Source of the DNA: Labrenzia sp. OB1
GTDB lineage: Bacteria; Pseudomonadota; Alphaproteobacteria; Rhizobiales; Stappiaceae
Length of the DNA stretch: 64,000 bases
Reading direction: 5' to 3'
Assembly: GCF_001624695.1 (NCBI RefSeq)
Contig: NZ_JSEP01000024.1
Location: 1-64,000, forward strand
Shown: piece after piece, positions 1 through 7,587 of the stretch
Layout: each line of letters opens with the position of its first letter
How positions within the stretch are numbered: position 1 is the first letter of the stretch
Program-made: the position numbers and the translations under genes
The notes under the pieces: generated by a model
Seen by the model: only the letters and a program-made list of their open reading frames with translations
Told to the model about the DNA's origin: nothing
The model's database searches: none

Positions 1-296
1 TGCCCATGGCGTGGTCATCCTTGATCAGGCCGGATGGCACACGTCAAACAAGCTCGCCATCCCGGACAACATCACACTCTTGCCTTTGCCACCCCGATCT
101 CCCGAACTCAATCCTGTCGAAAACCTATGGCAGTACATGCGAGAAAACTGGCTCTCAAACCGGGTCTTCAAGGACTACGACCAGATCGTCGACCTGTGCT
201 GCCGGGCCTGGAACACGCTCATCGATCAGCCATGGAAAATCATGTCAATCGGAATGCGTGACTGGGCGCATCGGTCCTGAATTTTGTCGTTTGGTA
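1..296 (+). mobile_element. 3' end of an IS630-family insertion sequence, cut by the window edge
   Basis: The first ~280 bases encode the C-terminal part of an IS630/Tc1-mariner type transposase, so the window begins inside an insertion sequence. IS630 elements insert at TA dinucleotides; a TA at 295-296, just after the transposase stop, is a possible right boundary. The left end lies outside the window, so the terminal inverted repeat cannot be confirmed. The exact right end is a guess. Confidence 0.6.
2..280 (+). CDS. IS630-family transposase, C-terminal fragment (5' end outside window)
   Basis: The reading frame is open from base 2 and ends with TGA at 278-280, giving about 92 visible residues. 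It contains the second catalytic Asp in a hydrophobic strand (VILDQAGWH) and the third acidic residue in the hallmark PPRSPELNPVENLWQYMRE segment, both typical of the DDE catalytic domain of IS630/Tc1-mariner transposases. The first Asp and the helix-turn-helix N-terminus would lie upstream of the window. The gene runs into the left side of the defence-like genes that follow, which suggests insertion into or next to them. Whether the full transposase is intact cannot be seen. Confidence 0.85.
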   Translation, partial: AHGVVILDQAGWHTSNKLAIPDNITLLPLPPRSPELNPVENLWQYMRENWLSNRVFKDYDQIVDLCCRAWNTLIDQPWKIMSIGMRDWAHRS

Positions 297-745
297 TCAC
301 ATCGTCCGGGCAGGCCCGCCGGCTTCTTCCTCAGCCGATCGCCGATGCGCTCGGTTGGACAATGTTTCAGACTGGCGATACGGAGACAGACCGGTTGCTC
401 GGAGTTGCGCGCCAACGGTTTCTCTCTCCCAAGTCCGAAGATCGGCAGGACGCGTTGGAAAAGCTGTGGGACGCTTTTGAACGGATGAAGACGCTGGAAC
501 CTGGCGTCAATAAACGCGCGCAGGCCGATGCGCTGCTAGATCGTGTCGCCTCGCCCGGCTCTGGATTTCGAGAAGCCCTTGCGCGAGAGGCTGCTGAGCT
601 AACCTCGATAGGGAACAGCTTTCGCATTCGTCATTCTGAGACAACACAGGAAGCTCTAACCTCTCTGGATCAGGTTGACTATCTGTTTACGCGCATGTTT
701 GCGTTTTTGCGAGTGATCCTAAAAGGGACTGGGCGTGGGGGATAA
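284..745 (+). CDS. C-terminal part of an abortive-infection (HEPN/Abi)-like protein, probably truncated by the IS
   Basis: A 153-residue frame opens with a TTG immediately after the transposase stop. Its body (ALEKLWDAFERMKTLE, then AQADALLDRVASP, then a helix with SIGNSFRIRHSETT and a C-terminal hydrophobic stretch VDYLFTRMFAFLRVIL) resembles the all-helical C-terminal domain of abortive-infection proteins of the HEPN kind; the IRH motif could be the HEPN active site. The first ~35 residues look unlike the family, no ribosome site precedes the TTG, and an IS end abuts it, so the N-terminal part of the original gene is probably missing. It overlaps the next gene by 11 bp, which implies the two were translated together. 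Family assignment is from recalled sequence style and is moderate at best. Confidence 0.5.
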   Translation: MSFGITSSGQARRLLPQPIADALGWTMFQTGDTETDRLLGVARQRFLSPKSEDRQDALEKLWDAFERMKTLEPGVNKRAQADALLDRVASPGSGFREALAREAAELTSIGNSFRIRHSETTQEALTSLDQVDYLFTRMFAFLRVILKGTGRGG

Positions 746-2057
746 CCTTTACGAACTCATCTACAGGCTTCTTCGGGGAATGAGCCACGCCCAATTGAGC
801 CAGGAGCCAGAGCAAGTTGCTGGGCTGATTGTACCTGCGCCGGAGGGCTTCTCGATCGGGCAGCGTGTTGAACTGGCGCTCAGTAACTTAACGCAGGAGG
901 ACTTAGCTCGGCTTGCGGTTAAATTCGCAGCTGCTCGTGGTGACATCCCGCTCGATGAGGCTGGTCGCAAGGTGCTAGAAGCCGATGATCCGCCACTGAC
1001 GCAGATCACACGACGAGACGTAGCGCGGATCCTTGGCGACGACCTTGCCGGAGAGCGCAACACGGTGGAAGTGGTCGAAGGCTACTTCCCACTTTCCTCG
1101 CCCTTCGAAGACTTTTTCGGCAGCCGGGGCAAAAGCCTGCGAGACCAGGTCGTCCGGCACATGGATCAAAATCCAGGCGATTGGTCCGTCGAACATCTTT
1201 TCGGCGAAATCGGGGCCTTCAATTGTTCAAAGGCCAGGTTCGGCGCCTTGCTTGAGCAAGGCGTTCATCCCCTTTCCCGAACGGGCGATGAGCAGAAAAA
1301 GACGGTCGCAGCATTAAACAGAATACTCGCGCGGGATGGATACGAGCTTGCTCAGGACGGCGAGATATCCGGGCACCCGCGGTTCAGTTTCCGCTCTCTG
1401 GTGCGTGGGGTCAGTGGTCGGCCAAAAAACCTGGTCTTTGCGTCGCGAGGACCTAAGCCGGAGATTGGCTTTGCCGATGCAATTAACAACGACATCGTCA
1501 TTTTGTCTGGAGAAGAGAACTGCTTGATCTACGACAGCCCCATCGGCGCAAACGGTCTTCTGTGGTCGGAGCTCGTTTCCTGGTGGGGCCAAGTCACGCC
1601 GGGTGCTGATGCCGCAAAACTTGGATTTCGACTCCAGGAATCGCTGGCCTCGGAAGCGGAACGCAAGCTATTCGCGACTTACTTCAAGGCCTATCGGCCC
1701 GCCCTCGGCGAGGCGCTGCCTGCACTTCTGCCGCAGGTCTATCTGCACTATGACCCTGCCGTGGTGAAGACCCTACGTCATCGGTTGCCTCTGCCGCGTC
1801 AGCGCATGGACTTCCTGCTGCTTCTTCCTAACCATCAGCGCATCGTGATTGAAGTTGATGGCAAACATCACTTCTCGGAAAACGACCGTCCGTCATTGAA
1901 GGTCTATGCAGATATGGTGTCGGCTGATCGCGAATTGCGCCTTGCTGGATATGAGGTCTATCGGTTCGGGGCGAATGAACTGGTTGGTGACGGCGCTGAA
2001 AAACGCATTACTAATTTCTTCGATAAGCTTTTTCGGCTGCATCGGATTAGGCAATGA
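735..2057 (+). CDS. AbiJ-NTD3-like / PD-(D/E)XK nuclease defence protein
   Basis: A 440-residue protein starting at a GTG that overlaps the end of the upstream gene. Residues ~90-215 (TQITRRDVARIL, then a helical region ending HPLSRTGDEQKKTVAALNRIL and RDGYELAQDGEISGHP) resemble the AbiJ N-terminal domain 3 found in abortive-infection proteins. Residues ~340-440 form a restriction-endonuclease-like fold: D359 in QRMDFLLLL, then D375-G-K377 in IVIEVDGKHH, followed by a Vsr/DUF559-like tail (ADRELRLAGYEVYRFGANEL). The D...DxK triad is intact, so nuclease activity is plausible. Predicted role: phage defence by nucleic acid cleavage, with the helical domains sensing or regulating. Domain calls are by eye; the function is inferred. 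Confidence 0.6.
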   Translation: MGDNLYELIYRLLRGMSHAQLSQEPEQVAGLIVPAPEGFSIGQRVELALSNLTQEDLARLAVKFAAARGDIPLDEAGRKVLEADDPPLTQITRRDVARILGDDLAGERNTVEVVEGYFPLSSPFEDFFGSRGKSLRDQVVRHMDQNPGDWSVEHLFGEIGAFNCSKARFGALLEQGVHPLSRTGDEQKKTVAALNRILARDGYELAQDGEISGHPRFSFRSLVRGVSGRPKNLVFASRGPKPEIGFADAINNDIVILSGEENCLIYDSPIGANGLLWSELVSWWGQVTPGADAAKLGFRLQESLASEAERKLFATYFKAYRPALGEALPALLPQVYLHYDPAVVKTLRHRLPLPRQRMDFLLLLPNHQRIVIEVDGKHHFSENDRPSLKVYADMVSADRELRLAGYEVYRFGANELVGDGAEKRITNFFDKLFRLHRIRQ

Positions 2058-2107
2058 ACTTGTTCGCTGATGTACCAAAATGCAGGGCGATCTGTAGGGG
2101 ATAGAAA

Positions 2108-3430
2108 TTGAAGACAACGATTTTCTGGTCTTGGCAAAGTGACCGCGACCCGAAGTTGCACCACTATTTTGTGCGCGATGCGCTGAAAGGTGCATGTAAA
2201 CTCATCGCCCTCGATCCCAACTATGAGGAAGCGGTGCGACCCGAGGTCGATCACGATACCAAGAATGTTGCCGGAACCCCGGACATCACGAAGACGATTC
2301 TGGACAAGATCGCCAGAGCAAATGTGTTCGTCGCGGATATGACCCCGGTTGGAGTAACGGATCCCGTAGCGCTTCAGCCGAACACGGCCGCAGACAAGCG
2401 TTCAGAGCCGAAGCATCTGCAAAACCCGAACGTCATGTCCGAGCTTGGCTATGCGGAACATGCGCTCTCGCAGGGCCGCATCATCCTGGTGGCAAACGGC
2501 GCGCACTATCCCGGTCCCGTGGCGCTCCCGTTTGACTGGCGTCACCGGAGCGGCGCGAAAGTCTATCACCTGAAGGACGGCGCCACGAAGGAAGAGATCA
2601 AGGTGGAGCAGAAGCGTTTCACCGAGGTTCTGAAGAGCTGCATTGTGCCCATCCTGGCCGAGCAAGCGCCGGCAAAGACGCCTCCGCCGCCGATTTCATG
2701 GCAGGCACCGAGCCGTGGCGATCCGGCCATCTGGCCGTCGGCGGAGAAGAAGCTTGAGTTTCGCAACAATGCGATGGGGGAGCCGCAGCGCAGTGTTGAG
2801 CTGCGGGAAGGGACGCGGATCTTTGCACGCATCGCCCCGCGCGAATGGTCGGTGCCTGCCAGGGTCGAGCTTGAACAGCGGATTTCGGACGTAGGGCTGA
2901 ACATTCGTGGGCGAGATGGTGATTGGGGTCTCAATGGCGATGGCGCACTGTCGGTCTGGGGCCATATCACCGGCGCACGCAACGACATGATCGTCACGAA
3001 CGCGACGCAATGGTTCCAGTCGAATGGCGAGCTTTGGGCGGTCAATAGCAACTGCTTCGCCGAGAACAGCGGTGGCCAGTGTTTCGCCTCCGCGCTGCCG
3101 TTCACACCGCTGGATGAGTTTCTTCGCAAGGGCATTGCCGCCATTAAAGCCATGGGCGGCAAAGGCCCGATCGGGATCAAGCTGGGTGCAGGTGATCTGA
3201 CCGACACCGTCTTGCCTGGCCAATACCAATCGCAACGCTTCCCGGCTGTCAGCGCGCGTGCGGATGTGGATGAAGAACTTGAGACTTGGACACCAGACGA
3301 ACGAAGAGCGCTCCTGTTCCGATTCTGGAATGCATTGATGGACGTCTACGGGTGTTCACCTGCGCGATCGTCAGCAGAGTTTGAAAAAGCAGCTGCGCTT
3401 GCGCCGCTCTCGAAACAAGTAGAGGAATGA
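2108..3430 (+). CDS. TIR-like (FWSWQSD-type) N-terminal domain protein, putative defence effector
   Basis: A 440-residue protein starting at TTG (2108) with the purine-rich GTAGGGGATAG just upstream. The N-terminus begins KTTIFWSWQSD, the opening strand of a group of TIR-like/nucleoside-deoxyribosyltransferase-like nucleotide-binding domains that occur in defence islands. It continues with a second strand (ANVFVADMTPV) and an NVMSELGYAEHAL helix whose Glu could be catalytic. The domain spans about residues 1-185. After a proline-rich linker (APAKTPPPPISW) the rest (~205-440) is a region I do not recognise. It lies 50 bp after the nuclease gene, same strand, and probably belongs to the same island. 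Possible roles are NAD+ or nucleotide hydrolysis; this is inference. Confidence 0.5.
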   Translation: MKTTIFWSWQSDRDPKLHHYFVRDALKGACKLIALDPNYEEAVRPEVDHDTKNVAGTPDITKTILDKIARANVFVADMTPVGVTDPVALQPNTAADKRSEPKHLQNPNVMSELGYAEHALSQGRIILVANGAHYPGPVALPFDWRHRSGAKVYHLKDGATKEEIKVEQKRFTEVLKSCIVPILAEQAPAKTPPPPISWQAPSRGDPAIWPSAEKKLEFRNNAMGEPQRSVELREGTRIFARIAPREWSVPARVELEQRISDVGLNIRGRDGDWGLNGDGALSVWGHITGARNDMIVTNATQWFQSNGELWAVNSNCFAENSGGQCFASALPFTPLDEFLRKGIAAIKAMGGKGPIGIKLGAGDLTDTVLPGQYQSQRFPAVSARADVDEELETWTPDERRALLFRFWNALMDVYGCSPARSSAEFEKAAALAPLSKQVEE

Positions 3431-3643
3431 CTCGCAAAGAGGCGAACTTGAATGTGCTCAATCTGAGCTCCTGGACACCGATCTATGTTCTTATGAAGGG
3501 AGTGCTGCCGAGGAGCACGCATTGCACGTTCTTCGCAATGTCACATCGAGCTATGTGTCAAAGGCTGCTTCTAAAAAACGAGGCCCCATAAACTGTCGTT
3601 CTGCTGAGGGCTGCGAGGTCATCTTTAAGACATGTAATAGAGA

Positions 3644-3677
3644 AAACCCGCGCGATCATTTTTGATCGAGCGGGTTT
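3644..3677 (+). terminator. Hairpin downstream of the defence-like island
   Basis: Two 15-base arms (3644-3658 and 3663-3677) pair with a single mismatch around a four-T loop. Three Ts close the right arm and four As flank the left arm, so it could end transcription from either direction. It lies in the 473-bp convergent gap between the TIR-like gene and nrdJ (3431-3903), which otherwise shows no coding features. Confidence 0.6.
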
Positions 3678-3817
3678 GTCGTTTCTGGCGCGCATGAGCT
3701 GACTATTGGCCTAAATCGTGAAACCTATGCGACACGGGACAACAAGCATAAGGCTGACCTCTTCGCCAGTGTCGCATATTACCGCAACCGTCGTTTTTCA
3801 CCCATCTCCCATTCCGC

Positions 3818-3846
3818 ACCAACCCAAGGAATTTCCTCGGGTTGGT
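3818..3846 (-). terminator. Hairpin downstream of nrdJ
   Basis: Arms ACCAACCC (3818-3825) and GGGTTGGT (3839-3846) pair perfectly, and an inner AGGA/TCCT extends the stem past one mismatch to a three-base loop. It sits 58 bp beyond the nrdJ stop codon on the minus strand. No run of Ts follows in either direction, so it may act as an mRNA 3' stabiliser rather than a classic intrinsic terminator. Confidence 0.45.
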
Positions 3847-3903
3847 ACAAAACATTGGGTGCTATGAACAAAACTTTGGTCCTCTCACCAATACAGCTTT
3901 GCC

Positions 3904-6900
3904 TCAACTACACCCGCTGGTGCCGCCACAGGTGTCGCATTTCAGGCAGGTTCCGTTCCTCACCATGGTGAAGTTACCGCATTCGGAGCAGCTTTCGCCT
4001 TCATAGCCTTTCATGCGGGCCTGGGCGATTTGCTGGGCCGCGGTGTTGGGCTGCTGGGCCGGGGGGGTGGAGATTTCCACCGCGGCGGCGGCTTCCGAGC
4101 CGCGGGCGAAGGCCGTGGCGACGGCGGAGACCTGGGCGGCGGGGCTGCTGGCGGTCTTGACCGAGATGACGTCGGTCGCCTCGCCGGCGGGGTCGCCACC
4201 GGCAACGAGGCGGAAGCGCTCGGTCTGGCCGCGCACGAGGCCGTGGGAGACGACGCCGCCGGACGCACCCTTGTCCATGCTCCTGACCGCGCCGGGATCG
4301 ACCGGACCGTTGAAGGCTTCCGGCGGGACGTGGGCCAGGTCGTGCCGGCCAAGGTAGGAGACCGCCAACTCGCGGAAGACATAGTCGAGGATCGAGGTCG
4401 CGTTCTTGATCGCGTCGTTGCCCTGGACCATGCCGGCCGGCTCGAACTTGGTGAAGGTGAACGCGTCGACATATTCCTCCAGCGGCACGCCGTATTGCAG
4501 GCCGAGCGAGACGGAAATGGCGAAATTGTTGATGAAGGCGCGCAGCGCCGAGCCTTCCTTGTTCATGTCGAGGAAGATCTCGCCGAGGCGGCCGTCGTCG
4601 TATTCGCCGGTCCGCAGGAACACGGTGTGTCCGCCGATCTTGGCCTTCTGGGTGTAGCCCTTGCGCCGCGCAGGCAGCTTTTCCTGCTCGCGCACGACCC
4701 GCTCGACGATCCGCTCCACGATGCGCTCGGCGACCACTTCGGCCCGTGCTGCCTGGGGCCTTGCGGCGATTTCCTCGGCGGTGTCTTCCAGATCCTCGTC
4801 ATCGTCAGCCAGAAGCTGCGAGTTGAGCGGCTGGGAGAGCTTGGAGCCGTCACGGTAGAGCGCGTTGGCCTTGAGGGCCAGCTTCCAGGACAGCAGATAG
4901 GCTTCCTTGCAGTCTTCCACCGTCGCATTGTTGGGCATGTTGATCGTCTTGGAGATCGCGCCGGAGATGAACGGCTGGGCCGCGGCCATCATGCGGATGT
5001 GACTTTCCACCGACAGGAAGCGCTTGCCGATACGGCCGCACGGGTTGGCGCAGTCGAAGACCGGGTAGTGCTCTTCCTTGAGGAAGGGAGCGCCTTCCAG
5101 GGTCATCGCGCCGCAGACATGAGTGTTGGCGGCTTCGACTTCCGACCTTGAGAAGCCGAGGAAGGTGAGGAGATCGAATTCCGGATCGTCCATCTGCTCG
5201 GGGGAAACGCCGAGGCTTGCAAGCTGCTCGTCGCCGAGCGTCCAGCGGTTGAAGACGAACTTGATGTCGAAGGCCGACTTCATGCCATCCTTCAGCTTGG
5301 TCAGACTCTCGTCGGTGAAACCCTTGGACTTCAGGGCCGCCGGGTTGATGCCGGGAGCCTGATCGATTGAGCCGAGGCCAACCGCGTAGGCTTCGATCTC
5401 GCCGATCTCGCTTTCCGAGTAGCCGAGCTTGCTCAGGGCCTCGGGAACGGCGCGGTTGATGATCTTGAAATAGCCGCCGCCGGCCAGCTTCTTGAACTTC
5501 ACAAGAGCGAAGTCCGGTTCGATGCCGGTCGTGTCGCAGTCCATGACCAGACCGATGGTGCCGGTCGGGGCGATGACGGTGGACTGGGCGTTGCGGAAGC
5601 CGTTCTGTTCGCCGAGCTCAAGCGCACGGTCCCAGGCCTTCTTGGCCCGGTCCACGATCACCTTGTCCGGGCAGTTGGCATGGTCGAGCGCAACCGGGTT
5701 TGTGTGCAGATCCTCATAACCGTTCGCTTCGCCATAGGCGGCGCGGCGGTGATTGCGGATCACCTTGAGCATATGCCTGGCGTTTTTCTTGTACCCCGGG
5801 AAGGAGCCGAGTTCGCCGGCCATTTCCGCCGAGGTTGCGTAGGAGACACCGGTCATGACGGCGGTCAGTGCACCGCACAGGGCGCGGCCTTCCTCGCTGT
5901 CATAGGGAATGCCGGAGGTCATCAGTAGGCCACCGATGTTGGCGTAGCCGAGGCCGAGGGTGCGGAACTTGTAGGACAGTTCGGCGATTTCCTTCGACGG
6001 GAACTGCGCCATCAGCACCGAGATTTCCAGAACGACGGTCCACAGGCGCACGGCGTGTTCGTAGCTGTCGATGTCGAAAGAAGCGTCCTCGCGGCGGAAC
6101 TGCATCAGGTTCAGGGACGCCAGGTTGCAGGCGGTGTCGTCCAGGAACATGTATTCCGAGCATGGGTTGGACGCGCGGATTTCGCCATCGGCAAGGCAGG
6201 TGTGCCAGTCGTTGATGGTGGTGTGGTACTGCAGGCCCGGATCGGCGGAGGCCCAGGCGGCATAGCCGATCTGCTCCCACAGTTCCTTTGCCTGCACGGT
6301 TTTCAGCGTCTCGCCGCTGCGGCGGGCGGTCAGGTCCCAGGTGCTGTCCTCGACGACGGCGTTGAGGAAGCCGTCGGTGATGCGCACGGAGTTGTTGGAG
6401 TTCTGGCCGGCGACCGTGAGGTAGGCTTCCGAATCCCAGTCAGTGTCGTAAACCGGGAATTCGATCTTGGTGAAGCCCTGGCGGGCGAACTGGATGACGC
6501 GCTGGATGTAGTTCTCCGGAACCATCATCTTTTTCGCGGCGCGGATCTCACGCTTCAACGCCGGGTTCTTGGCCGGGTCGAAACATTCGCCGTTGTCGGC
6601 CTCGCAATTGACGCAGGCGCGCATGATGGCGCTGAGGTGCTTCTGGCAGATGCGCGAACCGGTGACGAGCGCCGCGACCTTCTGCTCTTCCTTGACCTTC
6701 CAGTTGATGTATTCCTCGATGTCGGGATGGTCGACATCGACCACAACCATCTTGGCCGCGCGGCGGGTGGTGCCGCCGGACTTGATCGCGCCGGCCGCCC
6801 GGTCACCGATCTTCAGGAAGCTCATCAGGCCGGAGGACTTGCCGCCGCCGGACAGCCGCTCGCCGGCCGCCCGCACATGGGAGAAGTTCGAGCCGGTACC

Positions 6901-7587
6901 CGATCCGTATTTGAACAGGCGCGCTTCGCGCACCCACAGGTCCATGATGCCACCCTCGTTCACCAGGTCGTCGCCGACGGACTGGATGAAGCATGCATGC
7001 GGCTGGGGATGTTCGTAGGCGGTCTTGGACTTGGTCAGGCGGCCGCTCTGGTAATCGACATAGAAATGACCCTGGCTCGGGCCGTCAATGCCATAGGCCC
7101 AGTGCAGGCCTGTGTTGAACCACTGCGGGGAGTTCGGCGCCACCTTCTGGGTCGCCAGCATATAGCGGAGTTCGTCAAAGAAAGCCCGGGCGTCGGCTTC
7201 GCCGTCGAAGTAGCCGCCTTTCCAGCCCCAGTAGGTCCAGGTGCCCGCCAGGCGGTCGAACACCTGACAGCCGTCGATCTCGGAGCCGTAACGCTCGTCT
7301 TCAGGCAGGTCTTCAAGAGCGGTCTCATCGGCCTCGTGGCGCCACAGCCAGGACGGGACGGTGTTTTCCTCAACCGGCTTCAGCTTTGCCGGGACGCCGG
7401 CCTTGCGGAAATACTTCTGGGCCAGGATGTCGGCTGCGACCTGGGAAAACTGGGCCGGGACCTGGATATCGGCCAGGCGGAAGACGACCGAACCATCCGG
7501 ATTCCGGATCTCGCTGGTGGCCGTGCGAAATTCTATGGTGGCGTAAGGCGATTGACCGTCCTTGGTATAGCGCCGCTCGATCCGCAT
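3904..7587 (-). CDS. nrdJ: Adenosylcobalamin-dependent (class II) ribonucleoside-diphosphate reductase
   Basis: 1227-residue enzyme that makes deoxyribonucleotides from ribonucleotides using B12 to generate its radical, working with or without oxygen. Visible motifs: active-site Cys199 (HACFIQ), the phosphate-binding [11 protein letters not shown] at ~226-236, the N474-P-C476-S-E478 catalytic loop, the [19 protein letters not shown] segment, and a C-terminal cysteine cluster (CSECG...CLKCDTCGG, ~1200-1226) that reduces the active site. Length fits the long alphaproteobacterial NrdJ form. ATG start preceded by AGGGGACTTAG-type Shine-Dalgarno bases. Monocistronic; expression is probably under NrdR (see the paired boxes at 7813-7859). 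No B12 riboswitch was recognised in its 255-nt leader. Confidence 0.96.

Follow-up and report, generated by a model that had tools for sequence, protein, structure and literature searches.

A truncated AbiJ-NTD3 nuclease locus beside an IS630-family end in Labrenzia sp. OB1 may be the remnant of an AbiE-headed anti-phage operon

The AbiJ-NTD3 and AbiJ-NTD4 domains were named in 2013 (PMC3710099), and the sections of that paper drawn on here also noted fusions of AbiJ-NTD3 to nucleases of the REase fold (DUF2726) and to TIR domains. AbiE is a bicistronic type IV toxin-antitoxin system, for which the sections used of PMC3985639 describe autoregulation by AbiEi and toxicity of AbiEii. Accessory PD-(D/E)XK, HEPN and other nucleases in BREX defence operons have been proposed to act as backup effectors (PMC12839542, in part). 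We analyzed a window of 64,000 nucleotides from Labrenzia sp. OB1 (contig NZ_JSEP01000024.1) which starts with a truncated locus of three genes, here called A, B and C. As in the AbiJ family, relatives of gene A contain AbiJ-NTD4 and gene B contains AbiJ-NTD3, but gene B has a PD-(D/E)XK domain in place of HEPN, and the A-B pair, an AbiE head and attachments to Hachiman, Gabija or Wadjet were not met in the sections used of PMC3710099. The related loci L044, L042, L020, L060 and L072 begin with AbiEi-AbiEii as AbiE does; whereas AbiE is bicistronic in PMC3985639 (sections used), here it heads longer operons whose cargo can be exchanged, and the window itself has no AbiE. Gene B, like the proposed BREX backup nucleases, is a predicted accessory PD-(D/E)XK nuclease in defence operons; the proposal in PMC12839542 concerns BREX and related systems, whereas here one nuclease family is found on several unrelated systems, and neither AbiJ nor AbiE occurs in its main text. 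Neither the AbiE-A-B-C arrangement nor the name PDC-S32, a PADLOC profile matched by gene A, was found in the literature searched.

The three open reading frames (284-745, 735-2057 and 2108-3430) lie in a row on the forward strand, as originally predicted; the first two share 11 nt (735-745), an overlap that had also been noted, and the third starts after a gap of 50 nt. They are preceded by the right end of a transposable element (1..297, + strand) with the C-terminal part of a transposase (2-280), which matches DDE_3 (5.3e-14, above the cut-off in a Pfam profile search) and, over its C-terminal part, transpos_IS630 (2.2e-23). The latter score (83 bits) is under the cut-off of 100 bits because the reading frame is cut by the contig start. 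The element belongs to the IS630 family and has a DDE transposase of the IS630 type. Counting the window, the assembly has 13 copies of this end, each matching over 295 or more of 300 bases (identity was printed as 100%, a rounded value). Since seven of the 13 begin at base 1 of a contig, the window starts where the assembly broke within a repeated sequence. Six of seven other copies compared diverge from the window after base 297 and one after base 299, and the alignment of the window with an uncut operon of Magnetospirillum (L044, see below) begins at 297, which is the IS630 boundary. The TTG at 284 is therefore part of the IS rather than the native start codon, and the chimeric reading frame 284-745 takes its first codons from the IS.

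The remnant of gene A (298..745, + strand) encodes the C-terminal half of an AbiJ-NTD4/PDC-S32 protein. It matches only positions 153-297 of the 301 positions of the PADLOC profile PDC-S32 (8.7e-33), the intact homologue in G162 (L020) covers positions 2-296 (9.4e-49), and intact relatives are about 293 amino acids long; the window copy lacks the N-terminal domain, so that the predicted abutment of an IS630 end on a truncated first gene was confirmed. The missing half was not found in the genome of strain OB1 with a query that does find the C-terminal half. AbiJ_NTD4 was detected by Pfam in nine of ten family members scanned and not in the window fragment; an uncut gene A would therefore qualify as an AbiJ-NTD4 protein. 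The earlier description of this gene as Abi_C-like is not supported, as Abi_C was not among the families matched by the ten members at E <= 1. An Abi_C or HEPN assignment was not adopted, with no Pfam match in the ten members and none by PDB sequence or fold search. The sequence search against PDB gave three chance-like matches, the best of which (0.0067) was aligned partly via a His-tag. The structure model is poor (pLDDT 66, helical with low confidence), and neither HEPN nor an informative match was present among the best 50 of 211 fold matches. The motif IGN...IRH.E is invariant. R-x4-6-H is the canonical HEPN motif and was not seen in the gene A family.

Gene B (735..2057, + strand) is intact and a member of the AbiJ-NTD3 family (residues 88-251; PF18860, 5.8e-43, 146.6 bits with a cut-off of 32.5). 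Its C-terminal domain is predicted to be a PD-(D/E)XK nuclease of the Vsr/DUF559 type, with DUF559 itself matched below cut-off (0.0077). Residues D359, E373, D375 and H379 are invariant in 55 sequences, and the first three are presumably the catalytic D...E-x-D pattern of PD-(D/E)XK enzymes, in agreement with the original prediction of an AbiJ-NTD3-like nuclease of this class. Foldseek searches against PDB with the AF2 model (pLDDT 87.3, pTM 0.57) gave weak matches headed by nucleases, the best being Card1 (E 0.074), and further 3hrl (probability 0.97, E 0.19) and I-Bth0305I (TMt 0.65, E 1.8). Deriving the function of AbiJ-NTD3 from this fold was given up, since the model is good and yet no PDB match has an E value under 0.07. 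PDB sequence searches with genes B and C gave nothing useful.

Gene C (2108..3430, + strand), which is also intact, consists of a predicted TIR-like N-terminal domain of the CAP12/Pycsar type and an unassigned C-terminal region. The predicted TIR likeness stands at the level of the family, six of eight members of which match PF10137 (best 1.8e-4), and not for the window copy itself, which has no Pfam match of its own at E <= 1. The motif NPNV..E.G.A and residue E112, the candidate catalytic glutamate, are invariant in the eight sequences, and gene C of the window is 91% identical to that of L044.

A strong hairpin (3644..3677, -25.6 kcal/mol; z -5.3 for 3638-3690) is located between the convergent gene C and nrdJ and so may serve nrdJ too. 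It is likely a terminator, possibly a bidirectional one; of the hairpin terminator that had been proposed to close the island, the strong fold stands, but the hairpin is not listed by a terminator pattern scan and is possibly shared. The gene at 3904..7587 (- strand), which we take from its sequence to be nrdJ, encoding a vitamin-B12-dependent ribonucleotide reductase, borders a variable spot. A match to nrdJ was found in all 31 genomes searched, strain OB1 included, and the gene content on its 3' side is unlike that of the window in all six congeners examined. Three of these six (7 genes scanned) carry other known defence genes beside nrdJ, namely IIG RM, a CBASS-type cyclase and Drt9. Among 45 congener genomes, gene B and gene C were each found in strain OB1 only, and one other genome has a short fragment of gene B.

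An uncut AbiEi-AbiEii-A-B-C operon is present in the MAG Magnetospirillum sp. 64-120 (L044), in which AbiEi (1.6e-66) and AbiEii (2.8e-100) were identified by PADLOC. Window positions 297-3415 align to it without gaps over 3119 nt with 82.2% identity. The complete set was found in this one MAG, and AbiEi-AbiEii-A-B in Afipia (L042) and G162 (L020). Genes A and B are found together in seven of 79 listed genome loci, in G162 and in a Blastomonas plasmid, and in all nine they overlap by 11 nt. Co-occurrence of the three genes in relatives had been set as a test of the prediction; they occur together uncut in L044, and A with B in the nine relatives. The idea of a defence-type multi-gene locus cut by IS630 is thereby supported, with a unit larger than proposed: the native one comprises five genes or more, with AbiEi-AbiEii in front. 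The window has no AbiE genes and thus lacks the AbiEi plus AbiEii combination that defines AbiE; AbiEii was also not found in the genome of strain OB1, in a search that finds the G162 copy as positive control.

We consider it reasonably probable that a composite anti-phage operon with an AbiE head (AbiEi-AbiEii-A-B-C) once occupied the variable spot by nrdJ and that the locus is what remains of its 3' part, and the families, the partners and the spot suggest that this operon probably has a role against viruses. Insertion of IS630 and loss of its far side from the assembly would have left half of A and intact genes B and C. In the uncut operon AbiEi would act as autorepressor and antitoxin, keeping expression low and neutralising the AbiEii nucleotidyltransferase, and gene A (AbiJ-NTD4 plus a helical domain) may be translationally coupled to gene B and be its partner or regulator. 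Via AbiJ-NTD3, B might sense infection or inhibition of a neighbouring system and then cut DNA with its PD-(D/E)XK domain, and C could be a TIR-type effector that consumes NAD+. AbiE would form a repressor/toxin head, and B and C would serve as accessory effectors or backups, B being a putative portable backup effector found behind Hachiman, Gabija and Wadjet as well. Compatible with the remnant reading, there is about an even chance that the window copy is dead, with the head and half of A gone and genes B and C untranscribed and decaying. No sigma-70-like promoter was found by a simple scan of the + strand at 1-3903, which together with the loss of AbiE and of the N-terminal domain of A is consistent with this, but the intact frames of B and C with conserved catalytic-type residues and the gapless alignment with L044 argue against decay, and the copy might retain some activity.

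The neighbourhood of gene B was analyzed in 79 genome loci of 369 relatives and in 25 viral loci. Its 5' partner was defined as the immediate co-directional neighbour within 250 nt, and representatives were verified with PADLOC. Seed proteins for the labels had been chosen after inspection of the 5' side of B, and labelled partners lie nearly all on that side. Among the 79 listed loci, the 5' neighbour was HamB in nine, A in seven, GajB in four and JetD, AbiEii, RM and PDC-M02B in two each; it was an S24-type repressor in eight, unlabelled in 19 and absent in 24. Gene B thus frequently lies 3' of systems that are unrelated to one another, namely Hachiman, Gabija, Wadjet, AbiE and restriction-modification. 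To our knowledge it is not among the standard components of Hachiman, Gabija or Wadjet type III, none of which is present in the window. Because 43 of the 79 loci show no labelled partner for B and a repressor gene precedes it in eight more, B can probably act alone.

The AbiEi-AbiEii head and the B tail are found around different cores, namely A (L042), Hachiman (L072, with HamB split over two frames) and Gabija (L060), in three architectures only; L060 and L061 (98.8% identical) are one event. In a tree of B, Hachiman partners occur in two separated parts and Wadjet partners likewise, and under parsimony the 8 partner types require 10 changes of partner, three above the minimum; the two Gabija groups can be one change, and the number falls from 10 to 9 when L112 is left out. 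AbiE labels were set by hand for L112 (AbiEii about 600 nt from B; label also used in the cluster count) and L031 (RefSeq annotation). The tree omits 16 of the 25 viral loci and L003, L005, L029, L030, L062 and L065, which have short or split frames or, for L029, a misplaced start. A rather unlikely, tentative extension is that head and tail form a modular platform with exchangeable cores, in which B would be a general-purpose backup guarding the core in front and firing when a phage blocks it, and of which the window would be a broken copy. One uncharacterised nuclease family recurs immediately 3' of defence systems with unrelated mechanisms. Should B guard its neighbours, it would be a test case both for one common fail-safe across many systems and for toxin-antitoxin pairs that act as control heads in defence operons. 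Since compact operons are available uncut (A-B, AbiE-A-B, HamAB-B, GajAB-B), this question is directly testable.

Linkage is no proof of cooperation, since defence genes cluster anyway. It is quite possible, although not the reading we favour, that A, B and C are self-sufficient modules stacked in tandem in a permissive spot behind a permissive promoter, with the AbiE head and other cores as mere neighbours. The many loci in which B has no labelled partner are in line with such stacking, as is the presence of A without B in the stretches examined of G056, G263 and Indioceanicola. The S in PDC-S32 we take to denote a single-gene candidate, whereas in nine relatives A is paired, and overlaps, with B. 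Gene C was found after A-B, the window aside, in one of the 79 listed genome loci and none of the 25 viral loci and is therefore loosely attached; in plasmids of Sphingomonas and Rhizorhabdus it occurs on its own next to a tyrosine recombinase. The A/B overlap kept in every pair, the 5' position of the labelled partners (with labels seeded there) and the constant head and tail around exchanged cores argue against independent modules. That A-B and AbiEi-AbiEii chiefly stabilise plasmids or islands in a toxin-antitoxin-like manner, with phage protection as a secondary effect, is improbable. AbiE is a type IV toxin-antitoxin system (PMC3985639, sections used), and 84 plasmid records, of which 15 were typed as conjugative, contain relatives of B; but such relatives are found in genomes and viral contigs too, as well as behind Hachiman, Gabija and Wadjet, B has no apparent antitoxin, and its occurrence without a labelled partner is common. 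Among 50,697 phage records, one contains gene B, over 35% of the query, and genes A and C are each present in two viral-contig loci.

A possible AbiE upstream of gene C in S. fredii (L038), where a 104-aa reading frame was labelled AbiEii by phmmer, was not counted because the preceding gene is PD-T4-5-like and a tblastn search using AbiEi and AbiEii of L044 found nothing. Up to 217 nt, which gave no Rfam match, are shared upstream of L042 and L046.

Three co-directional open reading frames, A (284-745), B (735-2057) and C (2108-3430), lie on the forward strand behind the right end of an IS630 element (1-297), which was recognized by matches to DDE_3 (5.3e-14) and transpos_IS630 (2.2e-23). Seven other copies of this element part from the window after base 297 (six copies) or 299 (one copy), so the start of the A reading frame (TTG at 284) falls within the IS. 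The A fragment matches the PADLOC profile PDC-S32 (8.7e-33) at profile positions 153-297 of 301 only, confirming the original prediction that an IS630 end abuts a truncated first gene. The uncut operon was found in the MAG Magnetospirillum sp. 64-120 (L044), where the gene order is AbiEi (PADLOC 1.6e-66), AbiEii (2.8e-100), A, B, C. It aligns without gaps to the window from base 297 onward (82.2% over 3,119 nt).

The IS630 end occurs at 13 sites in the Labrenzia assembly, including the window (at least 295 of 300 bases, identity printed as 100%). Seven of these sites begin at base 1 of a contig, indicating that the window starts at an assembly break within this repeat. With a full-length relative of A as query, only the fragment was matched, and no AbiEii was detected in the genome at E ≤ 0.001 with a query that does find it in the positive control G162. 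The operon head and half of A are therefore missing from the assembly. Given an assembly completeness of 99.99%, deletion by the IS is a likelier explanation than an assembly gap. The practically identical IS630 ends, at least 13 in one genome and seven at contig starts, reflect a recent IS expansion that fragmented the assembly. The window copy retains B and C but lacks the head, so any activity of it is putative.

The order AbiEi-AbiEii-A-B is also present in Afipia birgiae (L042) and in G162 (L020). The predicted overlap of the first two genes measures 11 nt and is kept in all nine relatives with the pair (L020, L027, L042, L043, L044, L048, L050, L054 and L062), including L062, whose B falls into two frames. 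The window's clade in the B tree (SH-aLRT 99) has nine rows, all with A, which is truncated in the window. Among 385 genomes sampled from the class, our own included, AbiJ_NTD3 was found in 8, PDC-S32 in 9 and C in 5, with AbiJ_NTD3 and PDC-S32 together only in our own genome and G162. The three genes were expected to recur together as intact homologues; they do so uncut in L044, but among 79 genome loci of B, taken from the best of its 369 relatives, A is the 5' neighbor in seven and C follows in L044 only, and neither adjoins B in 25 viral loci. Elsewhere, C follows AbiEi-AbiEii in Ruegeria, AbiEii in Phaeobacter (from the search-match listing) and GajA-GajB in Rhizobium CB3171. A GHKL-ATPase-like gene (HATPase_c 3.9e-4, under the cut-off) precedes A-B in Paracoccus (L043) and Pseudotabrizicola (L048); L043 is 89.9% identical in DNA to L042, beginning about 80 nt ahead of A. 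The same 668-aa gene (L043:4024-6030; also in L048) lies beside GajAB-C in Rhizobium CB3171 (L158:6422-8428) and is a further recurring module.

Comparison of AbiE-headed operons revealed constant ends around an exchanged core. L042 carries AbiEi-AbiEii-A-B, Erythrobacter L072 AbiEi-AbiEii-HamA-HamB-B (HamB split over two frames) and Ameyamaea L060 AbiEi-AbiEii-GajA-GajB-B. L042 shares with L072 the head (86.5% over 1,672 nt) and tail (80.2% over 1,351 nt), and with L060 the head (75.5% over 1,641 nt) and tail (69.4% over 1,211 nt), with no core in common in either comparison. L061, 98.8% identical to L060, was counted as non-independent. L118 and L120 have a different AbiE pair directly ahead of B, with an AbiEii that BLAST at 1e-3 does not match to its L042 counterpart, and on the Cupriavidus plasmid L031 AbiEi and the next gene stand directly ahead of B. 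A common, partly G-rich upstream stretch of up to 217 nt (L042:4151-4367, L046:1061-1277; parts in L044, L047, L056, L072 and L049) precedes operons with different cores. No Rfam family matched the L042 copy; candidate roles for the stretch are element end, leader and exchange site.

As the immediate co-directional 5' neighbor of B within 250 nt, a simple gene caller gave HamB in 9 of the 79 loci, an S24-type repressor in 8, A in 7, GajB in 4, JetD, AbiEii, RM or PDC-M02B in 2 each, an unlabelled gene in 19 and none in 24. Representatives of HamA, GajA, GajB, JetC, JetD, AbiEi, AbiEii, PDC-M02B and the RM enzymes were confirmed with PADLOC; the HamB label is based on similarity and position beside HamA. 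A caveat on these counts is that the proteins used to seed the labels came from the 5' side. On the 3' side, a co-directional neighbor was present in 34 of 79 loci: C in one, a piece of B in one and 32 others, for which PADLOC at 1e-10 returned 37 families, each with one matching member among the 25 listed. Clustering of B at 80% identity gave 43 clusters, 11 with a known defense gene on the 5' side (L112 entered as AbiE by hand); in one further cluster that position is taken by A. With its 44 labelled rows and eight partner types, the B tree needs at least 10 partner changes (9 without L112; minimum possible 7). Hachiman partners occupy two separated places (alphaproteobacteria and Rhodoferax), as do Wadjet partners (Bradyrhizobium and Propionivibrio), and Polaromonas L032 has the opposite order, with HamAB after B.

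Eight of the 79 genome loci and 12 of the 25 viral loci, two partly overlapping sets, have an S24-peptidase/HTH (CI-like) repressor ahead of B (L073, L077, L078, L080-L083, L085, L122-L125, L127, L129-L135; the named ones Rhodobacterales; Pfam on L073, other loci by similarity). B in this position is possibly a lysogen-encoded immunity gene. Near-identical B loci across genera, L060/L061 (Ameyamaea, Roseomonas) and L046/L047/L056 (Rhizobiaceae MAG, Devosia MAG, Stakelama), reflect either recent transfer or contamination.

Uncut relatives of A are about 293 aa long, with AbiJ_NTD4 at the front in nine of ten members scanned. The first gene had been predicted to be Abi_C-like. Abi_C was absent from all ten members, the AF2 model had a pLDDT of 66 and a fold search against the PDB gave no informative match, so that an Abi_C/HEPN identity of the C-terminal part, with its conserved motifs LWD..ER.K and IGN...IRH.E, is a possibility and not a result. 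At L161:5194-7395 an A-like C-terminal domain sits on a different N-terminus and the next gene has a similar IRH-containing end; this pair may help to decide whether a HEPN domain ends A. The predicted AbiJ-NTD3 part of B was clearly recovered (residues 88-251, 5.8e-43). Its PD-(D/E)XK half is suggested by a weak DUF559 match under the cut-off (residues 365-419), residues D359, E373, D375, G376 and H379, invariant in 55 sequences, and weak fold matches of the AF2 model (pLDDT 87.3; lowest E 0.074), topped by Card1, NGO0050 and other nucleases, which we take to share this fold. B is intact and looks catalytically competent. C had been predicted to be TIR-like. The window protein has no Pfam match of its own, but the CAP12/Pycsar TIR model picks up six of eight members of its family (best 1.8e-4), and the NPNV..E.G.A motif with E112 is invariant in eight sequences, making TIR-like a fair label. 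Known TIR effectors have NADase activity, and by analogy C may be an NADase.

The analysis establishes the anatomy of the locus, its truncation and the gene linkage. In the mechanism proposed for the operon, AbiEi would set how strongly all of its genes are expressed, B and C would act as effectors, and B could back up whichever core stands in front of it; PrrC, which guards a restriction system, is a precedent. AbiEi acts as a repressor of its own promoter and neutralizes AbiEii, which is bacteriostatic and predicted to be a nucleotidyltransferase (PMC3985639), and for BREX, nucleases embedded as backups have been proposed (PMC12839542). A 2013 paper (PMC3710099) named AbiJ-NTD3, AbiJ-NTD4 and AbiJ-NTD3-REase fusions, and a sewage plasmid survey mentions AbiJ_NTD4. 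In the literature searched, with subscription journals mostly outside its scope, one paper used the name AbiJ-NTD3 and none the name PDC-S32; among the papers listed on links between AbiE, Hachiman, Gabija and accessory genes, no title or abstract opening reported the operon arrangement described here.

Within the genus, C was found in one of 45 genomes, our own, and B likewise only there, except for a short fragment in G401, about 8 kb 3' of nrdJ. The gene nrdJ borders the island and is convergent with C (window 3431-3903; nrdJ 3' flanks L174-L179, L181). In none of the six congeners examined do the genes 3' of nrdJ match any of those in the window, and one gene is common to two of the six flanks. 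PADLOC was run on seven genes from these six stretches; four (one in L177, two in L178, one in L179) had no match at 1e-8, and the others belong to known defense families, namely a IIG RM (L174), a CBASS-type cyclase (L175) and Drt9 (L176). In this genus the flank 3' of nrdJ is variable and holds known defense genes in three of the six congeners.
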